Of a DNA stretch of 64,000 nucleotides, positions 5,080-51,839 are shown piece after piece. Made by a program: the position numbers and the translations under genes. Every line of letters begins with the position of its first letter. Position 1 is the first letter of the stretch. The stretch comes from Bryum argenteum (lineage: Eukaryota; Streptophyta; Bryopsida; Bryales; Bryaceae): positions 18,458,727 to 18,522,726 of the forward strand of contig CM073327.1 in the NCBI GenBank assembly GCA_037043015.1, written 5' to 3'. The notes beneath the pieces were generated by a model that did no database searches, was not told where the DNA came from, and was given only the letters and a program-made list of their open reading frames with translations.

Positions 5080-5120
5080 GGAATGCACGGGTGTGAGCGG
5101 AGAGCGGTGAGCGGTGAGCG
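5071..5120 (+). repeat. Left end of giant element: target duplication and TIR
   Basis: AAATTCCGG (5071-5079) is the left copy of a 9-10 bp target duplication; the right copy is AAATTCCCGG at 51830-51839. The inverted repeat core starts at 5090 with GGTGTGAGCG and runs as GTGAGCG-type heptads to about 5120. The reverse complement of 51785-51815 matches it at 29 of 31 positions by eye. About ten bases between duplication and TIR core (5080-5089) match the other end poorly. Confidence 0.75.
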
Positions 5121-6758
5121 GTGATTGGCGATTTTTTTTTTTTTTCATGAAAGATTAAGACCCTATTACCACTCATTGCAGAAAAAATTTAAAAGTTAAT
5201 AGCCCTATTACCATGAAATGGGTGGTTCTGAATTTTTGAAATGGTCGTTTTTAGGCAAAAAAAAGAACCCAACACCGTGGGTATAGGTCCTTTATCCATT
5301 TATTTTTATGGTATTGAGGTTATACAGTATTTCATAAATTATCCACATTTGCAAGTTTAAATAAAAGTTAATTAAATTATGGGCTGGCATCTTCATGTGT
5401 AACCAATACAATTAAAATCATTTACAAAATATATACCATAATTTGGGATGGCCCTTTAGGTAATCAATAAGTTTAATTTATCAATATTAAGATTTAGAGA
5501 CTAATTAGGGCTGACGTCATCAATTCTCCAACTCTTTCTCCACGCTTACATTACACTGTACTGAGATACTTGGAGTAAACCTCAATTCCGTTAAAATGAC
5601 ACAATTCCTCTTGCCATATTACCAAAGCCATGTTGTGCCAATTTGGTCGCGTTTACGAAACGTGCCATTATACCGGCATATTTTTGAACTCAACATCTCA
5701 AAGATTTATGCTTGCAGAATGGCACGTTTTTTAATATCACCCACATCTTCCATAATATCAACAAATTTCTGTTATATCATCAAAAATCCATAATATCACA
5801 CTATTTGATGAATTTGACCTTCAAATGCCGGTGCTCATGCTCATGCTCAATGACGGTGCTCAATGTCGGTGCTCATGCTCATGCTCAATGTCGGTGCTCA
5901 TGCATTGTGATGTTGGACTTCATGACATTGGATGGGTTGTGTCATAAGGAGTGTCGGTTTAGGGGTGAATACATTCCATGAAGCTTTGCAGTGTCGGTGC
6001 TCATTGTGATGTGCTAGTAGAGATGGGAGAAAAGGATGCAGTAGTGATTCGATTACTCACGAGAATGTAAGAAAAGTGCAATGATGGTGTCCCTGAAAAC
6101 TCACGTCCATTGTCCGGTGAGCAAAACGGCCCTTCCATTACAATAACAGACATAAGATGCGACTTCAAATTAGCTCCATGAGCCGAAGTACAGCACCTGG
6201 CACCGGGCCCATCGGCTCGATGTACAAGGAGGGAGCAGGCCTGGCAGGGAGTGATCAAAATCGTTCTCGAGGACCTTCAAACGAGCACTCGCGGTGGTAA
6301 CAAAATGAATCAATTACAAATCGCCATGGAGCGAGGAGAGGAAAGAACCGCCCCGGGGCATCAAGATCCAACAAACATTAACATGGCACCGACAAACTAG
6401 CCGGAGGGACCGACAAACTAGCAGGAGGGACGAAGTGCAATGATGGTGTCCCTGAGAACTCTTGCCCTTGTCATGAGAGTGTAAGGGAATTGCTGTGTCG
6501 ATTTTTCATTCGTTGGAATGTCGGTGCCGGTGTAGAGTTCAGAAAAGCTGCCTTGTCGGTGCCGATTCTGACGGCGCTGCTGGTGTGCGGATACTGACTG
6601 CACTGCCGGCGCTGCGAAATCGGGTTGGTGAGGTTGGATGGGAAATCCAGAGTTCTCTCCTTATATACAAGAACGGAGGAGCCGGTTTACAGCATCTCAA
6701 AGCAATTGTTGACCATCTCTCTTTAGAAACTTCTCACTCTTGCACTGTTGTGGATCAA
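5121..6758. repeat. Subterminal region with short repeats
   Basis: No convincing gene is present. A poly-T run follows the left TIR. Positions 5826-5917 are a degenerate tandem of the words TGCTCATGCTCAATG and TCGGTGC. A 22-base unit (CCGACAAACTAGC.GGAGGGA) occurs twice at 6389-6431. A 27-base word starting GTGCAATGATGGTGTCCC appears at 6076-6102 and again at 6435-6461. ORFs of 60-90 codons here look like by-products of the repeats. Confidence 0.6.
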
Positions 6759-7165
6759 ATGGCGGGGCATTCGGGCGATTTTGATCCTTTGTACTTGTAT
6801 TCCTGCACTGCCTGTGGAGAGAAAAAAATCCGTGCTTGTTTGTTGGAGCATCCTCGTCTCGGTGTTGGCATATGCATTTCGTGCAAACTTGTGTTGGACG
6901 ACGTTGTATTCACGAAGAATGCCCAGTACGATGATGAGCAATGCAATTGGTGTGGGGAATTCAGTTTGTGATCCCGTGTGATTATTGTAACAAGTCGTGG
7001 TGTGCAGCGTGTATCGCACGGAACAAGGGAGACGACTACCTGAAGGACATGACGGGCAAAAATTGGGGGTGCTTCAGCTGCAACAAGTATGAGATAGTGC
7101 CTCTGCAGACGATTTGGGAGGATTTTGTGGAATTCACTTGGTCAGTGATCGCAAAGAAAGAATGA
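6759..7165 (+). pseudogene. ADD-type zinc-finger ORF, frameshifted
   Basis: ATG 6759 opens a small protein with the ordered Cys pattern of an ADD domain (ATRX/DNMT3/DNMT3L type): YSCTACG, LLEHPRLGVGICISC, then CNWCGE, and after a frame change CDYCNKSWCAACIARN and WGCFSCN. ADD domains bind the unmodified histone H3 tail. The two halves are in different frames; the shift falls at about 6955-6965, just after CNWCGE, where about one base is missing. The second half ends at TGA 7163-7165. No catalytic domain follows, so this is a stand-alone reader-like module or a truncated copy of a longer protein. It converges with the methyltransferase-like gene, whose stop is 250 bases away. The frame also extends upstream to 6495, but that part looks non-conserved. 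Confidence 0.65.
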
Positions 7166-8248
7166 TTCTGGGAGTGATTCCAACTACGACTAGTTGATTG
7201 CTAGTTATAGTAGTTGTTTGGCCAGGACTCACACTTGGATTGAGAGTTGGCTTGAATGTGCTGAAATTTTTTTAATACAAATTACCGACTTATAAAAATA
7301 TAAAACCGTATATATTGAAAAACAAATATCGATAGTATATAAGTAATAGAGCATGGAAAACTACGAATGTATGGCGCTACCATGTCCAGTACCTATCGGA
7401 AAACAAATCACAAACTAGGCAGACGGTGTAGTACCATTAAAGTGCTGATCACACTGATCTGCCTCAAAGTCTATAAACTTAAGGACACTCTTGCTATAAC
7501 GTCGACGTGGAGTGTCAGACAAAATGGGAGATGGAGCTTGAACAAACTCTTGAGCAAGACGCTCAGCGTACGATGGTAGGGTGAATTTTGATGGAGGGCT
7601 CTTGTAGAGATGAGCGTTGCGAGTCAATCGCTCTTTTAGACCTGCGATCCTAAAATTGCAAAGAAAGTCAGTCCTACCGATTTGTAAGTTCGTAATATAA
7701 AATCGAAAAAGAGAATACAAGATGGTAATACGCACCAATGAACTTTCGTGGTTTCTTCACGACCGGTTCGTCAGAGTCATAGTCTGCGAGGGGGGCTGAT
7801 TCTCCACTTTCCTCATCACCGGGAGGTCCGTTCTTGTAATCCGCGAGTACACCATCAAATATCTCTTCGTCAGGTTCCATAGCTATGAGGTGTCGGTTGG
7901 AGCGCGCGCAAGCAATCACAGATGCACCTATAAAATCAGAGGCCCACGTCAGAAATGCGAAATGTAGAAACGAATTGTAATGTAGAGTCTACGGAAACAT
8001 TACCTGTACTTGTGCTCGAAATAAGACTATACCCCCCTCGTCCGTGAGACAATCGACAAAACACTGAATGAAGGAGGGGTCCTTCTCTCGTGAGCCTCGC
8101 CACGGCGTATCGTCCGGACGATAACGCAAGGTTTCTTTCTCTGCAAAGTTACAGAGGTGGTCTTCCTCATCAGGTACGATTGCCACACCCGCGTATGCGT
8201 GTGCGACTTGCCGAGTTTGGAACTTCGAAACAAACTCTTTGCAACATA

Positions 8249-10161
8249 CAGTGGTTAGCAAAAGCGTTCGGACAGTAATGACAATCTTAGTTTATTAGTA
8301 ACACTTGTCAAGTTTGGAAAGTGCTGATTTTTTCAGCTAATTACAACTAAAGAGACATTTGTAAACCAGAAATAGTACCATCATTGATATTGTTGTTGTG
8401 AGAAAATGAGAGAGGCAAAAAAAATAAGATATTAATGAAAAAGATGTCTTAGAAGTGTCTCATGACCACATATTTATATGGAAGGATTGTAACCTTTTAC
8501 GTTACCTAAAAAAACCTAAAGTAAACTCTATGGATGGACAGAGACGACCTTTCATCTTGTCTCAACACTCCTCCCCAAACGATGAACTTCCTCGTTAAAA
8601 AACTTCAAGGAGATTGAAGAAAAAGAGTGAAGTCATCGTTAAACTTTCAATTCAACTCATGTCTACAAGTAAAATTTATGGTGGACAGAGACGGACTTTC
8701 ATTCTGTCTAAACAGAGCCACTTGCAAGGGCGGTCGTTCATGATGTGCCAATGATGGGTGCCCAATTCATTATGCACACAAGAAGAAAATAATCCTGAGA
8801 ATCAACATGTATTAATGGAGACCTCTGACTTGCATTTCAAGATTCATTGTGATTGAGTAAGATTACTTTTGATTAGCTATGGTTTCTAGAAGGTCTCTTG
8901 TTGAACGGAAGTTAGTTCTTCGATGCATGAGAGAAAAAACTCGTACTCTAAAATTTCAAAGGTTCTAGGCATCTCTCAAAGCACTTGTCATGCTATTGTG
9001 CGGAGGTTTACAATGAGAGGTCATTTGAGAAATGCTCTTTGACAAGGGAGGCATTGAATTCTTGATTGACGTAATGATCGTGAGGTTCTAAGGTTGTACA
9101 ATGCACCATCTAATGGTAAAGTGGGTAGAGAAATGCGATCTCAAGGATTGGATACGAGTGATGGGAACACGAGTGAAAATTGAGAAGCCATTATTGTCAA
9201 AGAAGCACAAAGTACGTCAATAGGCAAAGAAGTGTAGGCATGGAAGTTGGATGGATATGAGTTATGTGGTTTCTTTAAACGAGTCAAAAGTCAATTTGTT
9301 TGACTGAGATGGGAGCCAGTATTGTTGGAGGAAGAGAGGAGAGCATCTTTTAGATCAGCATGTGCAACCTACTATCAAATTTGGAGGTGGAAACATTACA
9401 ATTTTGAAATGTATGACTTGGAAGGAAGTTGGCAACCTTCATCTTATAGAAGGGAATATCGATAAGTTTATGTATCATAAAATTTTGGAGATGGAGCTCA
9501 GAATACTATACACATGCATTATTTAGGAGAGGAGAATGTTATCTTTCATCACAACAATGATCCCAAACATAATCCTAAGTATGTTTCATTGTTAGCACAT
9601 GAGTTTCAAGTAATTTGGCATCCGGCTCAGTCTCCTAACTTGAATCTTTTAGAACACCTTTAGAATGAAGTAGATTGTCGTATGAGAATGTTTGAGAAGA
9701 AACCCACTAACAAGAAGGATTTGTGGGAGAAATTGCAAGAAATTTGATATAGCATTGAGATTGATATTGGGAGGAAATTGATGCCTAACAGTGCTACAGG
9801 TGTTAATCGAGCAAGGTGGCTATACACAATGGTAGTCATTATGATTGTAAATTGAAGTTTTTAGGTAGGCATCATGATTCTACATTTAAGTTTTTAGCTT
9901 CATTTTGTAACTCATAGCTTTGTTTACAATGTAAATAGATAATGACTTCACTTTTTGCATAAAGAATTGGACACCCACATCATGTGTTTTATTTTTTATT
10001 GATTTCTCGATTGACAATTTTTGTTATGAATGTTATGCTACATCTTTGTTATACCTATGTGATTGTATGTTTAAATTCTACAACTTGAATGTGAGTTATA
10101 TAGGAAAACTAGCTCGTATTGGTCATGGAAGCGTTCTATCCAAACACTTCTCCTACCATTG
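8249..10161 (+). mobile_element. Degenerate Tc1/mariner transposon
   Basis: The left end CAGTGGTTAGCAAAAGCG starts after TA (8247-8248). The right end ends before TA (10162-10163), and its reverse complement matches with several transition differences (CAATGG.TAGGAGAAGTG). This is the TA target duplication and TIR pattern of Tc1/mariner elements. The 1.9-kb element lies in intron 7 of the methyltransferase-like gene, with its left end only about 12 bases from the splice acceptor of exon 8. Confidence 0.8.
8930..9835 (+). pseudogene. Mariner transposase remnant
   Basis: Pieces of Tc1/mariner (IS630-type) transposase are readable on the plus strand through many stops and frameshifts. There is a helix-turn-helix-like stretch with GISQSTCHAIVRRF near 8970-9010. 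Further on, HHNNDPKHN (about 9550) is followed by WHPAQSPNLNLLEHL (about 9620-9660), the second and third catalytic regions of the family, where the normal order is W-P-x-S-P-D-L-N. The first catalytic Asp region is too decayed to place. The copy cannot encode a functional enzyme. Confidence 0.75.
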
Positions 10162-13100
10162 TATTTGATTCATGAGTGTGCTCGTTTGAAATTGTCATTT
10201 GGTGACAGTGTTAGGAGAATTGGAACGAAAGTTTTGTGTTTAAGTACTAATTAATAGAAAAACATGGCCAACCAATATGTCAGTGAAATCAATTAACAAA
10301 CCTAGAAACATATTGGAGAAATGCATGTGTGACCACATATGTGTGTTACATTGCATTTTGGAAGTCATTTATGCATGCTCCATGCCTTTTCACGACACTA
10401 TAATAATCACGGTAGGTGGGGTTGGCCACCGCTCTCAATAAAGATGGCAACTTCGAACACGGGTACTTACGGTCTTTGCCAATCTGGGAGACAAGTTAGA
10501 AATTAGCTAGTGGCTAATAGATTTACCAGTACAAAACGTAATTAAGGAGATTATAAATGAGAAATGTACGAAATAATACCTTCTTGATGTGGTCGACGAT
10601 ATCTAGGATTTGCGAATCCCATTTTGCAGTCTTCGACGACTGATGAACCAAATCTCCAATGTTCCCCTTCTCAAGATACATTGGCAGAGTGACTGATATT
10701 TTTGACGACGAGCTGCTACCAATGTGATTGGGTTTCGGAAGAAGGCGTCTGGCGAATATTGGCTGGCTGAGGCGACATGGGGACTGCTGCGAGATGTGGT
10801 CAACGGTGAATGATTGAGGTGGGGACCCTGCATTCGTAAGTCCACTTGTAGACAGTTGAGTCAATCTTACACCGCGTCGAATTGTATTGTTGCCGACTCC
10901 CGCTGAAGCCTGAGTCAGATCAGCATCTTCACGTCCTGCAATGTCTTCTCCGAGGGGAGCATTTTCTTCGGATTCTTGCTCAAGATCTACAACAGGCTCT
11001 GCAACGGCGTTGCGTCGCTTCCTGTTCGCACGAGACTTGGGCGCTGCAACTGGTGAAGAAGGAGAAGAGATAGGATCAGGTGCGACTGGTAAAATGGAGA
11101 GGTGGTCATCGTCATCGTCGTCAATGTCCATTGGTGCAGAGTCAGCTGGGTTAGAAGCGAGGTTCCGAAGAAGATGCTTCTCCTCCTTGTGCACGTAGTT
11201 GTCGTCGCACTCAAGGAACCATCCACCTGTCGTAAGTTGGGAGTTGGAAAACCGCTCTTGTTGGGCTGAGGAGAAAAAGCTACGGAGATCATTCGAGACT
11301 GAAATGTCTTCGAACTCCATCGGAATGGAGAACGAAGCTATTGCTCCCTTCGCAACGAGCTCTAGTTTTAAGTACCTACGAAAGTGTGAACAAATCAGAT
11401 TGTTTAAATTGAAAAAGTAGTACCAAATTTATTAACATTGAAGAGAAAAGTAGAAATATACCGGAATAAAAGTCGCTTAATTGTGACTTTGCCACCGGTA
11501 ATCTTTTGAAGATCAGAGCCTTTGATGAATTTTGGGCTTGCTTTAGGACCAAGATAGTTGTTGAATGCCTTCTCCCACAAGAGCAACCTCCACTTCTCCA
11601 CATATTCAGATGGCTTGAGGACAACACTAGACCACTCAATGTTGAGGGTTTCGTTGTCAATCAGGTTCTGCAATTCATCTTGAAGTGATTGTTCGAGCTG
11701 TCGAATAAGAAAACGTGTTAAAGATGAAAATACCATATGAAATTTAACTTTAAAAACACGTAATGCAAATTTAAGTTACCTGTGCCCAAAAAGATGCGCG
11801 ATGCAGAAATGCAACCAGAGCTTTATCTTTCATTGGACGTTCATCTGGGAAGCGAAAAGATCGTCGAACTTCGTCTGATGAGTTCCACCATTGGAGCCAC
11901 TTTCCCTTGAAATTGCAATGAACATTGGTAGTAGCGACCATTTGTAAGCGATCGATTGTCATATCGGGTTTCAAGTTCTTGCTGTAATGGGAATAAATCT
12001 GCACATGAAATTCAGAAGTAAGAATCAAGTTATAAAACATGATTACAGATAGAGCCATATTAAAGATGGAAGAGGTGCTTTTTTTACCTCATTTGCAAAT
12101 ACTTTTCCAAGTCTGTTGTTGGCAACTGCGACCATCTTGTCGAAGTTCTTGCCACGTATTGCCTTAATTTCATATTTGATCGCATTATCCATGGCACTCC
12201 ATACTCCGGGTCCTGTTTGTTTCTCCTTTGGGACGGTGGCGTAGTAATTCGTTTCAGCGTCATCTGATACCTTTGCCAATCTCCTCTGTACAGCATATGG
12301 AAAGAATTAGAACGGTGGACAAAACCAAATACAAAGAATCAAATTACAAACACATTAAACCCATCTTACCGCGTATAAGAACTTTACAAAAACGTCAAGT
12401 GTTACAGGATACCAAGTTTCCTTTTTTGCTTTGGCGTTTTTGCATATTCTGAAATCCTCTGGGGATATCAGATCCTTGAAATCCTCAAGTTTCAATTTTC
12501 CAAACTGCCTCATTCGCTGCAATTTAGCACACAAACCGTCTTCGACATGGTCATGTTCAGTTGACCTGCAAGACAAAATCAAATATGAGCAACATTTAAG
12601 TGTAACAAAATATAACAAAATAAAGTTTTAAATGTAGGACAAGTACTCACCAATTTATGTCGTTCATAGCGTCCAGGACAACGTTGCTCTCTTCGCGAGC
12701 ATCAAGTACGATACAGTCCACAGAGATGTACCACGAGGGTTCCAGCTTATGATACCGCTCTATGTGTCGCATCCACGCCGTAAGACGGTGATTGCCTTTG
12801 TACACGTAGAAGTACTTGTCACTTAGGTGTCGAAGATCCGGATCAGACTATAGCGTTTTCTCAAACTCTTCGTTAGCGGATTTCCAAAGAGGATTTGTCC
12901 ACACTGCATCTCCGGCGTCGACCATTTTCTCTCTGCCTTTCCTATCGAAGGGAGAAACGTACATGACTCGGTCGCCCTCGCGATAGCCTTTGTTGAACTC
13001 ATTCTCTAATTTTCTGACGTCTTGTTCGGAGATGGGCCGAACCTTAGGATAACAAACAAGACGACACAGCGGAATCATCATGCGTGATTTTTTAACAGGT

Positions 13101-13618
13101 TTGAAACGCAACCTGTTGATGATCGCGATTGAATCACTTTTGTGAATCATTCGCATCTCATTGGCACTCCAGTCTGGGTCTTTGTTTTGGAGGTGAGGGG
13201 GCATCTGAACAATCCCCACATTGACACCTCCCGGCAATGGAGTGTCTTCATCTTCAGAATGAGAGACGTCTCCATCGTGATCGTGCATGGGTTGAGGTTG
13301 ACGGTCAGTTTCCACTGGACTTTCCTCCAAAACTGCGTTGCTCACGTCTTGAGCACTTCTGCCACTGTCATGTAAGAGTTCAATCTCATCCAGAGATCGA
13401 GTTGGTGGAGAATGAAGCGGACGTGGTGTGGCTTCCTCATCTTGGACTGATTGGTCTTGAGCTATGCTCATCTGACAATCCAAGAATCACAATCCAACAC
13501 ATCATATTAAGAAGAATAAGAAGATATCAAAATGACAATGACATAAAAGATGCACATTTAAACCTTGTTATAATTAAGTATATGATAAACATGATTATCA
13601 TATAATCCATGGTTACAA

Positions 13619-13930
13619 TCAAGAAGATTGCTTTTTCGCGGCAAGCCGCGGAGAACGTCTGGGTGCAAGTCTAGCTAATTCTTTCTCTTGGATTCGACGA
13701 GCTTTGGCCGCAGTCTTCCTAATTTGCCTGTTTATCGCAACCCGATCAACGTCTACCCGTGAAGAGTGACGGACAGGGGTGAGAGAAGGCGGAGTTTCAG
13801 GAACCGAAGACAATGGTATTACTAATCGACGGGACTCCACATAAGCTAACACTGAGTCTCTCAAAGTGGAGAGGTCGCTATCTCCATCAGATTCTTCTTC
13901 ACAATCAACTTCATGTTGCTTTATCGCATC
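13619..13930 (-). pseudogene. Terminal exon of an acidic/basic gene (U1)
   Basis: The exon begins after a polypyrimidine-CAG acceptor at 13931-13933 and ends at TGA 13619-13621. It encodes about 103 residues: an acidic start (CEEESDGDSDLS), a middle with VIPLSSVPETPPSL, and a basic end with KARRIQEKELARL and RRSPRLAAKK, which looks nuclear-localising. No domain is recognised. It lies upstream of the ParB/methyltransferase gene on the same strand. It is probably the 3' exon of the gene whose earlier exons are at 15693-15777 and 29095-29440, although an alternative first exon of the methyltransferase gene cannot be excluded. This exon itself shows no break. Confidence 0.45.
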
Positions 13931-14203
13931 CTGCAATACAAATCAAAACCATCAGGGACCAAATAGACGTATATTAAACAAGGTCAATCGAATGAACGAA
14001 AACCATACAAATACAACTATTGACCATTGTAAAGTAAAATTTAGCATATAAAGACACAATTAATGGCCTAAAGCAAACACAAGACACAGGCAGTTCGACT
14101 TCGAGCTCAGGGCGTTGCCAGAGACTCAATCCTGTCGCTAAGTGAAAGGTCCCATGCCACATTGTTGCAAGCAAACGTGAACCTGAAGAATTCAAATTTA
14201 CAC
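13931..14203. other. Intronic sequence before the tandem array
   Basis: No gene is supported. The minus strand is open for about 70 codons at 13974-14195, but this has no similarity or codon pattern I recognise. It most likely belongs to the intron separating the 15693-15777 exon from the 13619-13930 exon. Confidence 0.4.
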
Positions 14204-15448
14204 CCGGGCATGATGCTCACAACGACCACAGCCAACACGGGAAGAATTCAAATTTCAAAAAATTTCATGACAATCAGTCTGTCCTCAAACTTAAAACACC
14301 GATAAAATTTAGACACCCCCCCAGCCTTTCGTCGACGAAAGGCTGACTGAAGCTTAAACAATCCCACAACAAACGCGAGCTTGACGCCCCCGACATAATC
14401 ACCAAACAGCTTCCAGACGCTTGTGACATGCCTCGAGCGACCACCACCTGGGTGGCACTCTCCACACCTGCACCAGCCCGGGCAAGGCAGTGCCCCAGCC
14501 ACTGTGATGCGAGGTAGAGGAGGCCTCAAGCTGGCCACAACCAAGACACAACCCGAGCATGATGCTCACCAGCACCACAGCCAACACGGGAAGAATTCCA
14601 ATTTCAAAAAATTTCATGACAAAAAGTCTGTCCTCAAACTTAAAACGCCGAGGAAGTTTAGACACCCCCCCCCAGCATTTCGTCGACGAAAGGCTGACTG
14701 AAGCTCACACAATCCCACAACAAACGCGAGTTTGACGCCCCGACATAATCACCAAACAGCTTCCAGACGCTTGTGACATGCCTCGAGCAACCACCACCTG
14801 GGTGGCACTCTCCACACCTCCACGAACCCGGGCAAGGCAGTGCCCCAGCCACTGTGATGCGAGGTAGAGGGGGCCTCGAGCTGGCCACAGCTAAGACACA
14901 ACCCGGGCATGATGCTCACCAGCACCATAGCCAACACGGGAAGAATTCCAATTTCAAAAAATTTCATGACAAAAAGTCTGTCCTCAAACTTAAAACGCCG
15001 AGGAAGTTTAGACACCCCCCCAGCATTTCGTCGACGAAAGGCTGACTGAAGCTCACACAATCCCACAACAAACGCGAGTTTGACGCCCCGACATAATCAC
15101 CAAACAGCTTTCAGACGCTTGTGACATGCCTCGAGCGACCACTACCTGGGTGGCACTCTCTACACCTGCACCAACCCGGGCAAGGCAGTGCCCCAGCCAC
15201 TGTGATGCGAGGTAGAGGGGGCCTCGAGCTGGCCACAGCCAAGACACAACCTGAGCATGATGCTCACCAGCACCACAGCCAACACGGGAAGAATTCCAAT
15301 TTCAAAAAATTTCATGACAAAAAATCAGTCCTCAAACTTATAACGCCGAGGAAGTTTAGACACCCCCCCCAGCAGACCGGACAAGCCAGTGCTTCAGCCA
15401 CTGTGATGCGAGTTAAAGGGGGCCTCGAGCTGGCCACAGCCAAGACCA
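14204..15448. repeat. About 348-bp tandem repeat array, 3.5 copies
   Basis: The word GGGAAGAATTC.AATTTCAA recurs at about 14240, 14588, 14938 and 15285, a step of 347-350 bases, with unit identity by eye above 90 percent. Each full unit carries a C-run, a CGTCGACG palindrome and a GGGCAAGGCAGTGCCCCAGC segment. The last unit is shortened after 15370. Apparent ORFs of 60-110 codons recur in register with the repeat on both strands and are not genes. The array sits in what I infer to be an intron of gene U1. Confidence 0.85.
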
Positions 15449-15692
15449 CAGTCTAGCACGATGGGCACGACCAACGCCAAACACGAAAAACCCAAGCAGT
15501 TGAATGAGTTTCTGAGCATCACTTGCCGTATTAGTTGGATCCTACCTCTGTGCCTCACGAAGCACCCACGCAGACATAGAACTGAACCCCGTGTACTTCA
15601 AATACATAATCTCTTCTACATAGAATCGGAAAAAGAAGAACTCATTGAGTACAAGTATCAGATTGAGTAGATCATGAAGCACGGATTCTTAC
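15449..15692. other. Intronic flank of gene U1
   Basis: Nothing recognisable apart from the splice donor (minus strand GTAAGA) at its right end, which starts the intron after the 15693-15777 exon. Confidence 0.4.
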
Positions 15693-15777
15693 CTTGAAGC
15701 CCCTCGCGAACCACGCCTCCTTTTCTGCACGAGTCTTGAATTTTACTCCAGGAGCGTATTGAAGTGCGTATTCCCTG
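15693..15777 (-). pseudogene. Gene U1, exon part downstream of the family-B insertion
   Basis: On the minus strand this is the 3' part of an exon, encoding EYALQYAPGVKFK and KEAWFARGFK, followed by a good donor (AAG|GTAAGA). It stops abruptly at the family-B LTR (15778). The piece at 29095-29440 on the other side ends in frame with it (ELENV joined to REYALQ). The two were therefore one exon before the insertion. No known domain. Confidence 0.55.
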
Positions 15778-19402: not shown

Positions 19403-19404
19403 CT

Positions 19405-19416
19405 TGGTATCAGAGC
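19405..19416 (+). promoter_or_regulatory. Primer-binding site of A1 (tRNA-Met)
   Basis: TGGTATCAGAGC starts two bases after the LTR. It is complementary to the 3' end of plant initiator tRNA-Met, the usual primer of chromoviruses. The same site is at 36574-36585 in A2 (minus strand). In A3 (41039-41050) the third base is changed, giving TGATATCAGAGC. Confidence 0.85.
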
Positions 19417-19454
19417 GGGCTTTTAGTACCCAAGTGCAAAGTTGTGAGGGAGCA

Positions 19455-38997: not shown

Positions 38998-39507
38998 AAC
39001 GTCAAGACTCTAAGCACAAGCACACAGTTTGTACCGTCTCAATACCTTACCAACACCAACTAAACGATCAAAAGAAAGAACCATCTCGTCTTCCTACTCC
39101 TATTTATACAAAGTTCACAAGCCGCCCCTAACGTATGTTGTGCAGTTCATCATAAATTATCGCAACAACTATGACGGCTCGTGGTCTGCCAAATGTGACA
39201 GTCTCTGACATGAGATGCTAATCTATTTTTTGAATTTGCATACAAATGCTCTGACAGTGACGGCCGCCGTTACTTTTCCAATTTTGAGACTGTCAACACT
39301 TGCACATTAATGACACTAATTACATTTGCCTAATGGTATACAATATTCACTCTTCATCATGGTAATTGTCTGATTTATTCACTCTCCTCATCTTATTTAC
39401 TTCATTACGAGATCTTAGTACAAATTTCCTCTTATAAACTGTATCATATCTACTGTGTATCCTTTTCTTACATCCACTGTCGATGCTCGTTGTTCCTCTC
39501 GCACATC
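38998..39507. promoter_or_regulatory. Divergent intergenic region
   Basis: About 510 bases separate the start of the acidic gene (minus) from ATG 39508 of the transposase gene (plus). It is AT-rich toward both ends. No ORF or strong dyad is evident. It probably holds both promoters, but I could not identify specific elements. Confidence 0.4.
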
Positions 39508-39743
39508 ATGGCTTCCTCCTCTTCTGAACCCTCTACTGCAGACATCGTTGAGATTGTGTCACAGGGAGCAGTTGTTCCCATTTGCATGTCCGTAGGGCTT
39601 GAAGGTGTTGTAGACATCACTGCATCGTGGCTTGGAATTCTATTTGGCTACGATGCATCTTCCCTGTGGTTAGAGAGAGAAGTTCTAGAACCTCATACTA
39701 ATCATGTTCAGTACTCCATGGTCGTAGATCCAATCATCCTAGA

Positions 39744-41036: not shown

Positions 41037-41088
41037 CTTGATATCAGAGCAGGCTTTTAGTACCCAAGTGCAAAGTTGTGAGGGAGCA

Positions 41089-44000
41089 ATGGGCAAGAAG
41101 AAGACCATTGAGGGTGATGAGCCTGGAGCTTCTAAGCGGCCACGCACGAGGGGGAACAAAGACCCCGATCCTACAAGTGAGGCTCATTCTCATGACTCCA
41201 ATGAGCAAGCTGCCACTAGTGAGGGCAATGAGCAAATGGAATTGTCACTTCAAGAGGAGCCCTTGGGTGAAGAGGAGCGCTCTAGGTCGAGACGCCTAGA
41301 GTCTTCCCAAGGGGTGGAAAGACAAGATCCTCAATTGGCTTTCCAAATGAGAATGCTTGAGTTCATGGACTCCGTGAATCAAGAGCTCAAGCGTGGGAAG
41401 GAAGAAAGGGATCGCCAAGAGAGGTTGATTGAACACCGCATGATGCAAGGGTCCCGACCTTCATCTTCCACCAAAAAGTTGGCTAAGGTAAACATGCCAA
41501 GCACCTTCTCGGGACTTGGTAAGGCAAGGAAGGTGAAGGAATTCCTTCTTGAGATGGATAACTACTATGATGTCCAAAAGCCGGATGAGGAGGACAAGGT
41601 TTCCATTGCGGTGACATTTCTCAAGGATCATGCTCTTCAATGGTGGACAAGCAAAAAGGAGCAAGAGCCGGAGTTGGTGGCAAACTTGACTTGGGGTGGC
41701 TTCAAAGACTTGTTGAGTGAACGCTTCACACCGTAGTATCGGGAGTTGAGGGAAGGCATGAACTTGGTGCAAATGAGGCACACCGGGTCTCTCAAGGCCT
41801 ATGTGCGTGACTTCAATGCCCAAATGAATGCCACACCCAAGATGGATGAGTTCTCTAAGAAGTACATCTTTTTGGGTGGGCTTCAAAAGTGGGTGGTGGA
41901 TGCCTTGTTCAAGTTCCCAAAACTTCCTGAGGATGTGGCGGGCATCATCAAGATTGTTGAAAGGATTGAGGCCGATGGACCCGGGAGGAAGTCAAGTGGC
42001 CCCTCTCAACAAAGCGGATCAAATAGGAATGCGGCTCGAGGCAAAGAGCGCAAGAAGTTTGGCTTTGGCAACAAACACAAGGGACAAGTGGATGGTGGAG
42101 CCTCTAACAAAAGGGAACACCAAGGGGGAAAGCCATCTAAAGGGGGAGACAAAGGTGATGACACCAAGGCCAAGAGGTGCCATGGTTGTGGCAAGATTGG
42201 CCACTTCATTGCGGAGTGCCCCGACAAGAAGGTGAGTACCATTGCAAGTCTTGCTTGTGTTGAAGACCGCATACTAGAAGGAGGTTTTGTGGCCAAGGCA
42301 AGTAGCCTCAAGCCAAGGCCGGGCCTCTTGTTTCTTGAGGCCCAAGTAAAGGACAAAGATGTCTCATGTTTGGTTGATACAGGGCAACGCACTCCTTCAT
42401 GAGTCCCAAACTAGCAAGGGAGTTGGGCTTGCCACCGCAAAAAAGGCAAGCAAGCCCATCAATGTGCGTTTTGCAAAGGGCGAACCGCACAAGACGGAGG
42501 AAGTGGCGTTGCAAGTGACCTTGAAGTGTGGGACATTGGAGTTTGTTGAGAATTTGACATTATGTGAGATGGATGAGGTAGACCTCATCTTAGGGGATAC
42601 CTTCTTTGAGGCGCACACAGTGGATGTGAGGCGCAAGCCAAAGACGGTTAGTGGTGCGCCGTGATGGCAAGGAGTTAGTGTTGAAGTTAACTCGTGGCCC
42701 TTCAATAGCGGGGGGCAAATTAAACTTGGTCTCTTTAGACCAAATGTTGGAACATCAATTTGTGGTGATGGCTCGTGAAGAGCAACTTGGGCATGAGGGG
42801 AAGAGGGTGCAACAACCACTTCCCAAAGAAATTCAAGAGGTGTTGGCCAAGTACAAGGATGTGCTTACCAATGAGTTACCCAAAGAGCTACCCCCAAGAA
42901 GAGAAGTGGATCACAAGATCGAGGTGCTACCTGGAGCTGAGCCACCTTCTAAGGCACCTTATCGGTTAAACCAAAACGAGTTGATGGAGCTAAAGAAGCA
43001 ACTAAACGACTTGTTGGAAAGGGGTTATGTGAGACCAAGCAAGTCACCATATGGTGCACCGGTCCTTTGTGGACAAGAAGGATGGCAAGCTTAGGATGTG
43101 CATTGATTATAGGGCCTTGAATAAGGTGACCATCAAGAACAACTACCCTTTGCCTCGAATTGATGATCTCTTTGATAGATTGGCGGGAGCTAAGTACTTT
43201 AGTCGCATAGACTTAAAGTCGGGTTACTACCAAATCCGCATTGCGGATGCGGATGTGGAAAAGACCGCGTGCCGCACAAGGTATGGGTCTTATGAGTTCC
43301 TTGTGATGCCCTTTGGGTTGTGCAATGCACCCTCAACATTCACAACCCTTATGAACACCATCTTTCGAGAGGAAATGGATGACTTTGTGATTGTCTACAT
43401 CGATGACATCTTGGTGTTTTCCAAGACGGCCGAGGAACATGCAAGGCACCTTGAGGCGTGACTCATGAAGCTTAGAGACAACAAGCTTTATGCTAATGGG
43501 GAAAAGAGTGAGTTTGCACAACTTGAGATGGAGTTCTTGGGCCATGTGGTTACCGGAGATGGAATCAAGCCGGACATGAAGAAGGTGAAGGCAATTCAAG
43601 AGTGGAAGCGGCCTTCTACACAAAAGGGACTTAGGTCATTCCTTGGCCTAGCAAACTACTATCGCCGCTTCATACGCAACTTCTCTAAGATTGCCAAGCC
43701 TTTGTCCGACTTGTTGAAAAAAGGGGTGAACCAAGTATGGGATGAATTTTGCTACCAAGCCTTTGAGGAACTCAAGAACAAGTTGTCATCTCCACCAGTG
43801 TTGAAGTTCCCTGAGTTTGATAAGCCCTTTGAGGTCCACACAGATGCAAGTGACTTTGCCATTGGAGGCGTCTTGATGCAAGATGGTAGGCCAATTGCCT
43901 ACGAGAGCAAGAAGTTGGATGGGTGTCAAAGGAGGTGGCCAACTCACGAGAAGGAGCTCTTTGCGGTGGTGCATTGTTTGAAGACATGGCAACATTACTT

Positions 44001-45710
44001 GGGGTTGCACAAGACTAAGGTCTACACCGATAATGTGTCTTTGAAGTATTTTGAGACACAAGCACAAATGAGTGCCAAACAATTGAGGTGGCATGATACC
44101 TTGGCGCTCATGAATGTGGACTTGATCCACAAACCGGGCCGTGACAATGTGGTGCCGGATGCGCTAAGTAGAAAGGAAGAGTTTCATGCCATGAGCACCA
44201 CCCAAGTCTTGCGGCTCATGTATAAGGGTGAAGGCAATTGGGAACGGCGGATAAGAGAGGGGTACATGAAGGACCCCGAGGCACAACAAATGCTTGGTGA
44301 TCTTAGGAAGGGCAAGAAGCTCAAGGAGATCAAGTTGGTGAATGGATTGCTCAAGTATAAGCAAAGTAGGGTGTATGTTCCTCAAGGCAAGCTTAGATTG
44401 TTGGTTTTGAAGGAGGAACATGATAGTCCCATAGCCGCCATAGGGAGAAAAGGCTACCATTGCAACGGTGTCAAGGAGGTACTATTGGCCGGGGATGAAA
44501 GATGACATAACCCACTTTGTGAAGACTTGTGTGAAGTGCCAACTTAACCGGCTTCATATCAAAAGCAAGCGGGCTTGTTGCAACCATTGCCAATTCCGCC
44601 GGGTCCTTGGCATAGTGTGTCTATGGACTTCATCACAAGCCTTCCCGAGTCGCAAGGGTATGATGCCATCTTAGTGATGGTGGATCGGTTTAGCAAGTTG
44701 GCTCATATGGTGCCAACTAGAGGAACTAGAATCGCGCTTGAGACCGCCAAGATCTTTCTCGATGCATGGTGGAAGCATCACGGGTTGCCAAGAGTGATTG
44801 TGTCGGATCGAGACCCAAAGTTCACAAGTGCATTTTGGAGACACTTCTTTAGGAAGGTGGGAACCAAGTTGACATTTAGCACCGCCTTTCATCCCCAAAC
44901 AGACGGGCAAACCGAAAGGGTGAATGGGGTCTTGAACCAATACTTGAGGAACTTTGTGAGTGCGGACCAACGTGATTGGGTAGACTATGTGGGGTTGGCG
45001 GAGTTCGATTACAATGCGGCCACACACTCGGCGACTAAGGAGTCACCTTTCAAAGTGGCCTATGGAGTGGAGCCACTCCAACCTCGCCGACTTAGCTCTC
45101 GAGGGGGCACATTCAACACCAGAGTTCAACCAAGATGGTGAAGACTTGGCCAAGAAGCGGGAACATATGTTGGAAAAAACCAAGTTGTTGTTGGAGAAGG
45201 CAAGAAGGCGCTATGAGAAGCAAGTTAATGCCGGAAGACGTGAAGTGGAGTATGAGGTGGGACAAAAGGTGTTGTTGAATGTGAAGAACTTCACCATGTC
45301 CGAAGGCCTCACTCCAAAGTTCATGTCCAAGTTTGCGGGTCCGTTTCCCATTGTGGAACGGGTGTTCAAAGATGTGTATAAGTTGGAGCTACCACCCGAG
45401 ATCAAAGTGCATCCAACATTCCATGTTTCATTGTTAAAGCCATTCAAGGAGGATACCTTGTGGCCGGATCGCAAGCAAGTGATTCGGCCACCACCGTGAG
45501 TTGGTTGGACAACATTTGGAATATGAGGTAGAGGCCATCCTCAAGAGTAGGAACCTCAAAAACAAGAGCAAGGAATACCTTGTGAAGTGGCGAGGATACC
45601 ACGAGAAAGAAGCAACGTGGGTGGCGGCAAAGGACATGGTGAATGCTAAGGAGGTGGTGGAGAACTTTGAGAAGAATAGGAGCTCCAACAAGAAGCAACG
45701 TAGGCATTGA
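41089..45710 (+). pseudogene. A3 gag-pol region
   Basis: Gag starts at 41089 and is intact to TAG 41734-41736, the same stop as in A1. The CCHC knuckle, VDTG (followed by the same one-base loss as A1), RT with YIDD at 43396-43407, RNase H, integrase and a chromodomain ending at 45710 follow. Further breaks are near 42655, 43063 (CTTTG for CTCTTTG), a TGA at 43459-43461, 44440-44470, 44550, 45090-45120 and a TGA near 45497. Gag up to 41733 is the best preserved gag segment in the window. Confidence 0.88.
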
Positions 45711-46506
45711 TGAGGACATCAACCTCCGTAGTGGGGAGGATGACTTGTAGCTTGGGCGTAGATCCACAACACTTGTACTTGTTCTTTGGATTTGGCAATA
45801 AAGTTTGGCTTTGGAGTGTGCAAAGAGAAGAGTATGAGATGGAGTCCTAGTCTTGTACTTGTGCTAAGTTGGTGGAAGAGGGGAATAGAGATGTGAAACC
45901 GAGTTGGGAAGGCCGAGTAATGGGGACCAAGGCTAGGAGAAAGAGTGGATAAAACCATGAAGTCCCTTGGCCTTGGGCTTGTCCGGGCGGGGACAAGGTA
46001 ATGGCGCGTGCTCATAAAAGCGCCACTCCCACAAACTAGTGCAAGCTAGTGCATGGGAGTCATGAACCCATGCCTCGAAAGAGATAGTGGGATCCGAGTT
46101 GGGCGGAACTTGGCATTACCCCGTGCGATCGAGTCGTGGTGTAAAAGCCATCTTGGGTTTGCAACCAAGACAACTTGGTGGAAGCATTGAGGTCCACCTA
46201 GTAGTCAAGGAAGAAGTGTTAGGCTAGTGGAGCCTAACTTGGAGAGCCAAGGTAAGGGCAATCCAAGAGGGTCTCAAAGTAGGTGGGTCTAGAGTAGTTT
46301 AGTTGCCTTGGAAGAAGTCCAGGGTTCTAAACGGACCACCTAGTGACGACACCTTTGAGACTTTGCCAAAGTTTGAGAGTGCATTGTGGGGGGGTCGCGC
46401 CCGGTGAAACACAATGCTGCACCAATGGGGATGGCAACCCAAGAGTTGGTGTGACCGACTACAAGTATAGTCGATGAGGGCATCGACTCCATTAGGTGGG
46501 GGTGAG

Positions 46507-47798
46507 TGTCGCGCACCTCTCCTTGAGGAGTGCCCGCAACACCAAGGGCCCAAGGGGACACCGGAGTGACGCCCGGGCCTTGGGGTGCCAAGGTGAAGGG
46601 AACCTAAGTGGGCCTAGTGTGGGAGAGGACCCCGGGCGTTGGAGACGCCTCTCACCCACGGAGACTAGGAGCCACGACGGAATGGACATGAGATTATGGA
46701 AGCTCATGTTGCCACGATTCCGGGATGCTAAGGAGCACCTCAGTTGGAGGTGTGAGCTAAAAGTTATGGGAGTTGGAAGATTGTGGGACTAAAGTGAGTG
46801 CTGTCCAGGGACAGTGCTGGACTGGGAAGCTGGCCCGGGACTCCCGAATCTTCAGAGGGGCATAACTCCCTCAATACTTGTCGGAATGAGGCAGGTAAGG
46901 TGTCTATCGGCATCTACTTGACGAGTAGATGTCGATAGAGTGGTCGCTCGTCGCGTTTGGATGCGGGACGAGGTAGATACGAGCCCTGGAAGGTTCGGGA
47001 AGTCTCCCGGGGCCTTCCAGCGGCTAAGGCATTGGGAGATTGGGTGGTCTTCCAAAACTAAGAGGTGTGAGGGTCCAGCCCTTCACCTAGGACCAGGGGC
47101 TGCCGAATCCCACAGAGTATACTATGGGGAGGGCTGGTCTCCTCCCCACTCCCATGGTGCCTTGGTGGTGACCAAGGTGGGAGTCCCAGTGGTGTGGCTA
47201 GTGTTGGGGCCTCACCATGGGGACTCCCAAGCCAAGGTGAGTCCCAATGGGTGGAGCTAGTGTTGGGGCTCCACCATGGGGACTCAAAGTGCAAAATGAG
47301 GCACGGTGGGTGGAGCTAGTGTTGGGGCTTCACCACGGTGGCTCATAAGGACAAGGTGAGTCCCGGTGGGGGAGCTAGTGTTGGGGCTTCACCACGGGGA
47401 CTCATATAGGCAAAATGAGGACCATGAGTGCTACCGATGTGGGGTGGTGTCTCACCGCCGGCGTTGTGATTACTTGGTGGCCTTGGGGTCACCATGGTAG
47501 TCATGGGCGGTGGTGAGGAGACACCACCAAGTGCGGTTAGGCCGCGTGGTATGGGAGTGCCACCAAGTTGGGCCTTGGACATAAGTGGAAGTCCGCACCT
47601 AACCATTGGCTACCTACGATGGGGTTGAGTCCCGGTTGCATGAGTAGGAGGGATTGATAACCAAGCGGTGAGCTTGGTGGTTGGTATGGGGAGCTAACTT
47701 TGTGCATGTAGGGGATGTGCAGAGTTAGCGCTCGTGACACTTGCTAGAGTTGGGAAAAAGTTGGTGTAAGCTAAGGTGAGCTAGCAAGGGTTGCGACA
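46507..47798 (+). repeat. 3' LTR of A3
   Basis: 1292 bases, preceded by the AGGTGGGGGTGAG polypurine tract. It matches the 5' LTR of A3 including the A3-type diagnostic bases. Confidence 0.92.
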
Positions 47799-50700
47799 CT
47801 AGAGAACAATACTACAATCTGGAAGCTTAGAGCTGGAAAGTATCGCCTCTACGGCTTGACGGAGTCCGTCATGAACGCGTCAACAGTTCTCCTGACCCCA
47901 CCTAGTTCTTCTACTATCTCCACGGTTGCTCCAGCTCTTACTCGTGTCAAGGTCGAACCAGGTCTTGAAGTCACCATTGACATATCGGATTCAACAGAAG
48001 ACGAGAAGAAGTCTCCTCTGCAACCATGTCGTCTGTCGTCTGATATTCCATTGCCACCTCTTCTTAGGGATAACTATCTAAGAGCCACCCCTCCTTCTTT
48101 AGTTTCATCGCAAATTGTAAAACCCCAAAAAATTCTTCCATCCCTCTGCAATCTCGCTAGTATGCCCAGTAGCAAGACTCTCCTCAAAAAAATTGATTTC
48201 AAAACCATCCGCACTGTCAACGTTTCTTTCTTGCCTCCGTCATTCAATGGCGATGTTCTCTTCATCTTTCCGCCCACTCTTCCGTCTGCAACTCACAAGG
48301 TCGCGAAGTCCATGGAGGGGATGGATAAACGGTACGACGGTCATGTGTGGACCAGGACGATGACCACCAACATCAGCAATACGCAAGGGTTGTCTTTCCG
48401 ATACTCAAACTGTGTAGGTCATCTACAGTGCCACAACCCCAACTGCGACTTCTTGCAACGACCTGATCGAGTTGCTGGAGTGAACGATGTGGAGTTTGAA
48501 GGCATTACTAAAGACCCCTTCCTAGTAGGCGGATCACCCCCGCCCACCTCGACGTTGGTCTGTAAGCTTTGCAAACAACCTCCTGTTTGTGTTGCACCTT
48601 GTTATGCGAAAATCTTTTACGTACTCGGAGAAGATTGTCAAGAGCGTGCATGTGTCCATATAGGAACACACGAACATCCTGTCAATGAAAGTTGGAGATT
48701 ATAGATGTGTACGGAAAAAAATTGATGAGTTGTTAGAGGAGCATGTTGACCGTAACCCTCAGGCAACCGTTTCCAAAATAGTTATGGAAACCAGCAAAGA
48801 CTTGTTAGGTTACTTACTTCTCCGTGACGAAGGTGACCCCGAAACTGGCAACCTTTCTCTTCAGCAGCTGGAACCAGTCTTTGAACAATGCAAAGAGTTA
48901 AACTCTCCCAACATGCGCAATCGTATCTACACTTTCAAGTACTTGCGTAGGTATGGAATTCTTGATGGGATCACAAAGCTCAGAGGTCTCAGCAACTGGG
49001 CATATGTGCAACGCAACATGTTCCCTGGCCAAGGGGATGAATCCGAGAAAGTCTTCATCTTCAAGATGTCGGAGGTCGGCCCCGGTAGCGGTGTTGATCT
49101 CGTTCGCCGTATGCAGCCTGGAGGAAATCTCTCCCACGCATGGATGATGTTCGACCATGTCAAACGCGTTACGGATTGGACCACCATGGCCTGCCACGTG
49201 TACGACTCACGTTACCAACGCATTCTAACCATTGCATGCTGTGATTTTCAGTCAGAGGACAAAGATGCTCAACTCGTCTTCTGGAAGAACCTTAATCATG
49301 TGATGGCAAGGCACGGAGTACCTAAGCCGCAGTTCCAAGGATTTATGGCTGACAGTGCCCAAACCAACTGGAACGCTGTGCGCATCATCTACGGCTCTGG
49401 AAACCCTGCTGTCCCCATGGAAGGCCGCGAACGCACATGTTATTTCCATTGGACTCAGTCTCTTGAGAAACATACGAAACAATATATTGTGCCCGAATTG
49501 CAAGGCCAACACCGGATTCTCTGTAAGCAGTACAAGGATGCGCGCACCATGGAAGAGGCTGAGACCCGATATTGGGCTATAAGAGCGTGGTGGGCATCTT
49601 CGAAGGCCACTTCCGAAGTTGGTTTAGAACACTTAGGTCATTGGCTTGCGTACTGGCACTTCAGATACCGACAATGGGGTGGATTAATGGAATTAGTAAG
49701 TATACAATTTCTTTGCTTATGACATGCTCTACAGTAGCTTCTAGAATGTTATGCCAGTACCAAAGAAATTGACAGTTTTTGTTTTAATAATATATATTAT
49801 TAGTTGAATTTTTATGTGGATTTATATATTGTGAATCTGTATTAAATACAGATCTAAATTATGAATAAAGTCTTAATACGTTTGTACATTGCAGGAAAAA
49901 AAGTATTCGGCAGAAGAACTCGCAGAGATGCCTTCATGAAATCTTGCGGAGTCAATCCATAACAAGTGGTTGCAAGCGTCTGGCAATAAGGGTAGGGATC
50001 TCTACGTCGCAGCCGTTGACGACTACGTTCGGGCCTTCCTCCAAGTGGTCGGCTACCATCAATTCAACAAAGGCGGTGCAAGTGGTTCTAGACCATCTCT
50101 AGAAGAACTTCGTCAGCGTCTATATACTGCTCAACGTCGGGCTAATCGATCCGGCAATCCATATTGCCTCAACAAGGCAGTTATAGACTTTCCTGAAGCT
50201 GAAGCTTATTGTACGCGTGACGCCCACTTGGAGGGGGCAGAGATTTTTGGTTCCAGGAAACATAAGGCTGATGTTCCCATTGGTGCTGAAGATGAAACTC
50301 ATCGACCTGACACCGTGAGTTACTCACGTCCTCGAATAGGGAGAAGAGTCACACGAGCTCTTGGTGAGAATCTCAGTCCTATTCACGAAGAAGATGAAGT
50401 TCAGGAGCAACCGATGGAACCCCCTGCTTCTCCAAGACCCAGTATTCAGCGCGTCATTGCTATCCAAGAGACGAGAGTGAATGAGCGTCTATGGCACATT
50501 GCTTGTTTGAAGGAATCCTCATCCAAGGCTTGTTGGGGTATTATGGCTAAGACCAGGAAGAAATGCGAATCCCGCATTGTCCAAAACGGGAAGGCGACCG
50601 CAGCTCCTACCTACACTGGAGTATGGCAACGTCCTCAAGAGGGTCCAAAAAAAACTGATCAGTTTTTCTTTTGTGCAGACGACATTGAGCGTTGTGTGAA

Positions 50701-51346
50701 AGGCAGCCGTCGTAAATGGATTGAGCCGTTCTCTCGGAAACAAGGACGGCCGCCTATCCCCTCTGTTTGGCCCGTGAAGATTGGGACCAATCTGACAGTG
50801 GACGAAATAGAGGCGTTGGAGAATGCGGGTTTTCGGCTCCCACGAAAGGAACGCCTTCCTCTCAACCGCACATTCAATACTTCTGCGCCACCGAGAGACT
50901 TGTCACATATTCCTGTGCCGGACAAGGCTGATCTATACTCCAAATCACGCAAGTCTAAAGTTCTTCGACGCATCAAGGCTGTGACTTCGAAGCACATGAA
51001 GAACATTGACTCAGCTCGTGCCATGGAGGCAAAAATACTCGAGGTGACCATGATACCGCAACCTGGTTTTGGATGTGTCGTTGCTTTGGAGTCGGATTCA
51101 GAGTCTATCTATAAACTATCTCTTAGTGAGAACCCTGAGTGTTCTTGCCCGGTGTTCAAAAAAACCATAGCTAAGTTAGGACGAAAAGGCCAACCGTATA
51201 GACATTGCAAGCACCTATACTTCGTGTTGGTATTGGTATGCAAATTTGATATTGATAGAGACCTCTTCATCCACGCGCCCACCCTCAGTTTCAACGAGGT
51301 GAAAATGATCCTAGAGAGGGGAATCCTAGACCAAGTTAGAGAGTAG

Positions 51347-51784
51347 ACTACCTCAAGGTCACATTACATAAACCAACATCCACATCTACCCATTCTACAT
51401 GTTATCCCTGTAATCGTGTGTTTCACACGTTATTTATTTTGATTTCAGTGGTTTACTTTAATCAATAAATGTATCCGTATTTACAAAAAAATTATGATTT
51501 GCTATACAAACTTGGACTGTTGATTTCACAGTTATAATAAACTAGTCTACTCTGTAAAATTCCTGAATGTCTCTTAGCGTTTGAAGAACGTGGTTTAAGT
51601 CGACCAAATTTCAAAAATTTTAGCCTTACCTTCACGGGTTTAGGTACCCAAAACCACGGTAATAAGTCAAGAATGTTCGAATATTCCAGGGAATATTCCG
51701 GAAAATAGTAAAATATTATTTTTAGAAATTCTTTTACTAAAAATACCAATTCACCGCTCAAATTCATGAAACTTGATGGCTAAA
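51347..51784. other. 3' flank of transposase gene inside the right TIR
   Basis: AT-rich, with no gene. A GGAATATTCC-type dyad occurs at about 51675-51703. An AATAAA-like signal (CAATAAATG) near 51462 may serve the transposase mRNA. Confidence 0.4.
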
Positions 51785-51839
51785 CGCTCACCGCTCACTG
51801 CTCTTCGCTCACACCGTAGCTACGTCCACAAATTCCCGG
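51785..51839 (-). repeat. Right TIR and target duplication of giant element
   Basis: Read as reverse complement from 51815, GGTGTGAGCG is followed by GTGAGCG-type heptads that match the left TIR. Fourteen unmatched bases (51816-51829) separate it from AAATTCCCGG (51830-51839), the right copy of the target duplication. Confidence 0.75.

Follow-up and report, generated by a model that had tools for sequence, protein, structure and literature searches.

The transposon at the locus

The window analysed here is a 64,000-nucleotide stretch of the genome of the moss Bryum argenteum (assembly GCA_037043015.1, contig CM073327.1, positions 18,458,727 to 18,522,726). It contains a single DNA transposon with inverted ends, at 5078–51827, which has been opened up by later retrotransposon insertions. 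The element carries a transposase gene, an accessory gene with ParB-like and methylase-like parts, and an open reading frame (ORF) for an ATRX-type ADD finger; long palindromes are arrayed between the accessory gene and the transposase gene, which are divergent (Table 1). The anatomy of the element is nearly certain, and the mechanism discussed below is the most likely of several.

The insertion site can be read from the letters of the window. A repeat, here called repeat B, is broken after ACAAATTCC at 5077 and restarts with the same nine bases at 51828. A second copy of repeat B (15778–18111) is uncut at the insertion point, and the left and right flanks of the element align to it at 83.5% and 81.8%, respectively, with a 12-bp overlap at the junction. 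The original prediction, made from the sequence of the window, had placed a transposon with a 9–10 bp duplication at 5080 to 51829, inside a long terminal repeat (LTR). The transposon stands with corrected bounds, and the duplication is 9 bp on both sides. The uncut second copy likewise upholds the cut in a target repeat; repeat B, a putative LTR in that prediction, reads as a GC-rich, open-frame dispersed repeat.

Ten pairs of ends were fetched from the genome; when their right ends are inverted, all of them match the left end of the window element, at 88.6–97.1% over 34–35 bp. Its ends are common to all ten pairs with small changes, at the left start in copy c6 and at one base near the right end in copy c8. 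The ends of a second-subfamily copy, called copy B, diverge more from those of the window element than the ends of the ten pairs do, and match each other at 32 of 32 positions as inverted repeats.

The family in the genome

The genome (259 Mb, 25 contigs) has been searched with both ends. The first look gave 253 left-end and 237 right-end candidates, and 40 of each were scored. Counting the window's own pair, 18 of the 40 scored left ends have a scored right end at most 70 kb away in the right order and orientation. Among the same 40 left ends there was no same-strand pair in the wrong order, and there was one opposite-strand pair.

Twelve copies were examined: the ten shortest of the 18 pairs (c0–c9), the window copy, and copy B (L037/L038). 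The ten shortest pairs are 14.8–16.8 kb long, in agreement with the length of about 15.5 kb originally predicted for the window element after removal of its insertions. An exact 9-bp duplication flanks ten of the twelve copies (9–10 bp in three of those), c6 keeps eight of nine bases, and c4 has none. Paired ends 12–20 kb apart that enclose the same genes are present at ten loci, most of them flanked by 9-bp duplications, and both the window copy and c1 have a counterpart that is uncut; the check proposed with the original prediction was passed on both counts. Copy c1 lies within another member of the family. When its two flanks are joined with the second duplication left out, they align to uninterrupted members, at 81% to copy B (263 bp, 10 gaps) and at 77% to c6 (300 bp, 11 gaps). 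First-look candidates for the accessory exon and for transposase exon A number 1183 and 1687, respectively; these figures are unconfirmed as copy counts and suggest that the family is very common in the genome.

The ParB-like and methylase-like accessory gene

The accessory gene is located on the strand opposite to the transposase gene. Eleven exons have been seen, numbered 2–12, and a splice acceptor implies a further exon upstream; the GT-AG borders were chosen by eye on the alignment. In c1 the product is stop-free and 1273 aa long. The gene is present in all twelve copies and in two further loci, L045 and L046. Over the whole gene, the ratio of nonsynonymous to synonymous rates (dN/dS) is 0.10–0.18 in 11 comparisons with c1, with stop codons (0–8 per copy) left out, and the gene has been shown to be under purifying selection.

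The putative ParB-like part has a GNHR box in exon 3, found in 12 of 14 copies, and a PHROG ParB-like partition profile matches five of the six copies scanned (best E 0.005). The Pfam ParB model has no match in the accessory protein. PDB sequence searches returned four matches for the ParB exon (E 0.07–0.9) and five for a profile of four accessory proteins (E ≥ 0.07), all of which were taken as chance.

The C-terminal part of the protein matches phage DNA methylase profiles, with E 2.5e-5 in P0128. A tblastn search with this part gave eight phage records, six of them annotated as adenine-specific, generic or plain DNA methylases, one as a cytosine methyltransferase and one without annotation. 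The Pfam N6_N4_Mtase match is below the cut-off, and DpnA is matched at E 0.09. Motif IV precedes motif I, which is the order of the beta-class amino-methylases. The expected catalytic motif of N6/N4 methylases is of the DPPY type, but here it reads DAPE in 10 of the 12 copies listed and DSPE in copy B, and is unread in L046. Of the 13 copies listed for motif I, 8 have DWSAST; c4 and c8 show changes there, and in three others (c7, L046 and the window copy) the motif is cut or unread. Thus, N6/N4 methylase sequence similarity is present, but the catalytic motif is not intact. Among the matches listed in the protein searches, three Ceratodon purpureus proteins are 52–54% identical and keep both altered motifs; algal relatives are absent among the matches listed. 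Since the DAPE or DSPE and DWSAST states are common to the Ceratodon proteins, we infer from the sequences that the methylase-like domain may be long-standing and catalytically dead. The originally predicted ParB/methyltransferase-like gene is supported by sequence, with the qualification that its methylase motifs are degenerate.

The ADD gene

Inside the left end, copy c4 has a plus-strand ORF of about 185 aa that matches the ADD finger of ATRX at E 2e-14, that of DNMT3L at 2e-3 and that of DNMT3A at 0.02. This match supports the ADD-finger ORF of the original prediction, which now reads as a module of a subset of copies. The Pfam ADD_ATRX match is below the cut-off in the three copies scanned. 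At least 18 of the 40 scored left ends have the module, 1.0–2.3 kb inside, and with 40 of the 102 ADD candidates scored the true figure may be higher; an unrelated insertion was considered for this stretch and rejected on the same count and position. Over 152–156 codons, the nonsynonymous rate of the ADD gene is ~0.35–0.41 of the synonymous rate in three comparisons with few changes.

The transposase and its superfamily

The transposase gene has two exons. Compared with c1, its dN/dS is 0.09–0.26 for exon A and 0.09–0.25 for exon B. The protein has CxxH, E and SWIM-type motifs. The SWIM-type CxC...CxH at its C-terminus is a finger by motif only; all twelve copies have CKH, and all but c5, where it is incomplete, have CxC. 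The best PDB fold matches are to ISCth4, which we take to be of the IS256/Mutator type. Because of the fold match, these motifs and the 9-bp duplication, the element is best placed as a divergent Mutator-like lineage. It fits that placement with a duplication in the 8–11 bp range, terminal inverted repeats, a transposase predicted to have a DDE RNase H fold of the Mutator/IS256 type, and the SWIM-type motif.

Other results speak against this placement. The TM-scores to ISCth4 are low (0.12–0.13 by query and 0.22–0.24 by target, with a root-mean-square deviation of 17–18), and the VIA Z is below 8. The Pfam Mutator-like element (MULE) model PF10551 has no match in any of 37 transposase homologues, with one weak Transposase_mut match at E 0.034. 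An hhalign comparison of the transposase core with five MULE proteins of the same genome gave no alignment, a result that says little, the profiles being shallow. Scans of the transposase with Pfam, NCBIfam and PHROG gave nothing useful, exon B of copy B has no Pfam match, and a PDB sequence search with exon A gave 0 matches. A transposase of a non-Mutator superfamily that makes a 9-bp duplication would account for the missing Pfam match, the missing profile alignment to local MULEs and the low TM-scores; against the fold, the motifs and the inverted ends, we consider it quite unlikely. The MULE-type transposase originally predicted is therefore of Mutator type by fold, motifs and duplication, and is not seen as a MULE by Pfam.

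The genes of the elements differ in their synonymous divergence (dS) from c1, which is ~0.4–2.0 for accessory exon 3, 0.2–0.33 for the methylase exons and 0.14–0.26 for transposase exon A (1.5 in copy B). Since dS is unequal among these blocks, the elements are mosaic and gene blocks seem to recombine between subfamilies.

Palindromes between the divergent genes

In the window copy, the palindromes are located in a hypervariable middle block. Some palindromes are perfect over 20–38 bp in c1, c2, c3, copy B and the window copy, and others pair at 10–11 of 12 positions in c0, c4, c5, c6, c7 and c8. Counting every place with 10 or more of 12 pairs, near-palindromes number 75 in 11 copies vs 6.1 in shuffles, and perfect palindromes of at least 18 bp number 0.7 in shuffles. 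The site consists of two 11-bp half-sites flanking two variable bases (CG, CC, GG, AG, GA or CA). Its pattern occurs within 3 mismatches at one or more places in all twelve copies, and at 3–9 places in ten of them. Across the genome, it has 472 occurrences vs 0 for the reversed control.

Within the middle block, the site-carrying part, taken from c0 and c1 as queries, has no alignment of at least 80 bp at E 1e-10 to other copies; other parts of the block align in some. Mere tandem duplication has been set aside as the origin of the palindromes between elements, the site-bearing stretch being unalignable and yet the sites alike. Joint changes in the two arms are seen at three pairs of positions: 4/21, 8/17 and, in c2 and c3, 2/23. 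Of the 50 sites listed, 43 have complementary bases at positions 4 and 21. Taking one site per array, the two positions are complementary in 15 of 17 arrays vs a shuffle mean of 8.1 (P 0.0006, not corrected for relatedness). The covarying arms suggest that selection maintains the dyad symmetry, as would be expected of a hairpin or of a site for a dimeric DNA-binding protein.

Four arrays were fetched. The two picked away from scored genes both lie between a divergent accessory gene and transposase. The other two were chosen for their lost 4/21 symmetry, and one holds decayed accessory exons and the other is a gene-free satellite. A second 24-bp palindrome, TCAAGAATATTCGAATATTCTTGA, is located ~160 bp inside the right end (L020:7365–7388); six of 11 copies have it in perfect form, and in some of the rest it is nearly so.

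Proposed role of the accessory proteins

ParB-like proteins bind palindromic sites and then spread. Because the ParB-like gene adjoins such sites in the twelve copies, L045 and L046, we favor an explanation in which the accessory protein acts on the palindromes of its own element in self-recognition and anti-silencing, and we give it about an even chance of being correct. The transposase would act on the inverted ends and move the element. The ParB-like protein would bind the palindromes as a dimer and serve as the self-recognition factor, and the methylase-like domain, presumably without methylation now, would be retained for another role. ADD domains link to histone H3, and the ADD protein may make that connection here. 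The accessory and ADD proteins could then keep the divergent promoters active against host silencing, as VANC does with an unrelated protein; VANC is probably the closest functional parallel of the accessory protein. Since the arrays are mostly uniform within an element and different between elements, elements would mark themselves and not their rivals. A fuller version, in which a bacterial-style partition device (a ParB-like protein that loads on clustered palindromes and coats the adjacent DNA) has been rebuilt in a plant Mutator-type transposon for self-recognition and anti-silencing, with a dead methylase and an ATRX-type ADD reader as helpers, is tentative and somewhat doubtful as a whole.

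Several observations weigh against the self-recognition proposal. Copies c5 and c9 have one palindrome site each, that of c9 at 3 mismatches. The arm-covariation count covers 50 of the 472 sites, all on contig C1 and in 17 arrays; the shuffle ignores descent, and independent arm changes are fewer than the 17 arrays. The satellite at L047:3–7033 has weakened palindromes in 223-bp units over 7 kb, and no element genes were found in 8 kb. The accessory gene has 1–8 stops in ten copies compared with c1 and none in copy B. The AF2 model of the ParB exon is too poor (mean pLDDT 39.9) and gave no structure match at E ≤ 0.001. Finally, residue differences in the accessory protein follow the palindrome variant no more closely than in controls, with 5 columns for the window element vs 2–24 for other elements. 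A co-segregation of residues and palindromes that at first seemed positive was dropped after each other element had been swapped into the window's place.

This last result also agrees with the alternative that survives best, in which the palindromes serve another protein (the transposase or a host factor of the divergent promoters) or act as transcript hairpins, and the ParB-methylase protein has a different function, for example in assisting transposition. The arrays lie between two divergent genes, where promoters are expected, and the palindromes could fold as hairpins. On the other hand, the variation at the two central bases is in keeping with a protein dimer that reads two half-sites, and in its length and clustering the site resembles those of ParB; the bacterial parS sites are clustered palindromes. 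We regard this alternative as possible, on the unlikely side. The accessory protein could also mark the DNA of its own element as an active N4C/N6A methylase, a role that has been proposed for the 1104-aa ParB-methylase of the Ectocarpus transposon Sola1-1_Ec32 (PMC12477816, from the accessible part of the text). The methylase similarity is real, but DAPE or DSPE stands in place of the DPPY-type motif and DWSAST stands at motif I in most copies, and both states are common to Ceratodon, which makes activity improbable. Extra genes captured Pack-MULE style as cargo without a role for the element would suit the habit of Mutator elements of picking up host gene fragments (PMC6446971, accessible part) and an ADD module in part of the copies only. 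We consider such capture very unlikely, the ParB-methylase gene being present in every copy examined, constrained in all 11 comparisons and matched by relatives in Ceratodon. The gene reads as a core component of the family. Of the cargo-bearing element originally predicted, the chromatin- and DNA-modification-type genes remain, and the cargo status does not hold for this gene.

Relation to known systems

VANDALs are Mutator elements. They appear as a clade in a published Mutator table (PMC6446971), and their VANC proteins bind short motifs in fast-evolving tandem repeats of their own element, causing methylation loss (PMC5735166; PMC10398659). As in the present family, the target motifs of the Arabidopsis VANDAL/VANC systems lie in fast-evolving tandem repeats of non-coding element DNA (PMC5735166). 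They differ in that the VANC21 sites are short (YAGTATTAY; PMC5735166), whereas the sites here are palindromes of 24–38 bp that accompany a ParB/methylase-like protein, and in that methylation loss has been demonstrated there (PMC5735166; PMC10398659), whereas the present system is known from sequence. These comparisons, and those that follow, rest on the accessible parts of the papers cited.

In Ectocarpus, Sola1-1_Ec32 is a giant DNA transposon with a gene for a ParB-like and N4/N6 methylase protein antisense to its transposase, and green and red algae are mentioned as well (PMC12477816). Its product has 1104 aa, compared with at least 1273 aa here. In contrast to the Bryum element, Sola1-1_Ec32 belongs to the Sola-1 superfamily, and the red-algal giants with accessory genes are EnSpm (PMC12477816). 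Degenerate methylase motifs, an ADD protein and a palindrome array are not among the features described for Sola1-1_Ec32 in the accessible text (PMC12477816). Fusions of ParB to N6/N4 methylases also exist among phage ParB-CTPase proteins (PMC12704722). The accessory protein shares with bacterial and phage ParB-CTPases (PMC12704722) the GxxR P motif (here GNHR) and the fusion to an N6/N4 methylase fold, but is encoded by a eukaryotic, intron-rich gene inside a transposon. With Mutator-like elements, the present element shares a 9-bp duplication, inverted ends, a SWIM-type finger and antisense second ORFs, the last in some lineages; ParB-methylase and ADD genes are not among the entries in the accessible part of the clade table (PMC6446971), and the transposase differs in that the Pfam MULE model does not recognize it.

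Both the element type and the ParB-methylase gene thus belong to known kinds, and such a gene has been published from giant transposons of algae, in other superfamilies (PMC12477816). In the literature searched, with subscription papers mostly outside reach, no description of a ParB-methylase gene in a Mutator-like or moss element was found. What seems to be new within that literature is the Mutator-like moss version with its shared loss of methylase motifs, its ADD partner and its palindrome arrays. The original prediction had spoken of a notable new class; the ParB-methylase idea had already been published for the algal giants. ParB-methylase accessory genes, known from algal transposons that belong to other superfamilies, are now seen in a Mutator-like family of a moss as well, with a shared loss of methylase motifs. 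If the self-recognition proposal is true, anti-silencing by sequence-specific, element-encoded proteins would have had more than one origin among plant Mutator-type elements, the source in this case being a bacterial ParB-methylase module. The protein-site pair is directly testable: one genome offers a defined palindrome, natural variants of it in which the arms covary, and stop-free gene copies.

Later insertions and decay of the window copy

The window copy is almost certainly an old, insertion-riddled member of a family of giant (about 15–17 kb) cut-and-paste transposons. One LTR retrotransposon is present three times inside it (18109–26171; 29996–37882, inverted; 39744–47800), with aligned stretches 98.5–99.7% alike. 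These three copies and the second copy of repeat B have no match in the clean copies compared and are therefore read as later insertions. Accessory exon 9 could not be located in the window copy. The copy is unlikely to be autonomous because of this, one stop in the ParB exon, a shifted ADD frame, and the LTR insertion and a frame change near 48.65 kb in transposase exon A.

Table 1. Features of the transposon in the window, in window coordinates
Feature	Position	Strand	Remarks
Target-site duplication, left copy	5069..5077	.	9 bp, ACAAATTCC
Complete transposon	5078..51827	.	Start GGGGAATG, end CTACGTCC
Left terminal inverted repeat	5078..5124	+	GTGAGCG heptamer repeats; heptamers by TRF in clean copies
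ATRX-type ADD finger ORF	6477..6968	+	Frameshifted in window copy; full frame read in c4, c8, c9
ParB-like and methylase-like gene	7421..13930	-	10 exons in window copy
Accessory exons 12, 11, 10	7421-7648, 7734-7925, 8022-8240	-	
Stretch in place of exon 9	8251..10453	.	No match in clean copies compared
Accessory exons 8, 7, 6, 5	10580-11374, 11464-11697, 11780-11998, 12088-12285	-	
Accessory exons 4, 3, 2	12370-12564, 12653-13471, 13628-13930	-	ParB box in exon 3
Tandem repeats of ~349 bp	14202..15437	.	Hypervariable middle block
Palindrome, window variant	14322..14345	.	24 bp, perfect
Second palindrome	14673..14696	.	11/12 pairs
Third palindrome	15021..15044	.	11/12 pairs
Second repeat-B copy, later insertion	15778..28452	+	Encloses LTR retrotransposon 18109-26171
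LTR retrotransposon, later insertion	29996..37882	-	Inverted
Transposase exon A	39454..39744	+	Residues 1-97
LTR retrotransposon, later insertion	39744..47800	+	Within exon A; 5-bp duplication CTAGA, by eye
Transposase exon A, continued	47799..49590	+	Residues 96-691; frame change near 48.65 kb
Transposase exon B	49895..51343	+	Third acidic residue motif, SWIM-type finger
Right terminal inverted repeat	51785..51827	-	
Target-site duplication, right copy	51828..51836	.	ACAAATTCC

Repeat B and its neighbors (window 862–2193, 16364–18169 and 52581–54443) contain long open frames, some of them acidic, without Pfam matches over the cut-off. Adjoining subfamily copy B, a leucine-rich-repeat ORF (L038:8626–9000) resembles plant resistance genes by eye.

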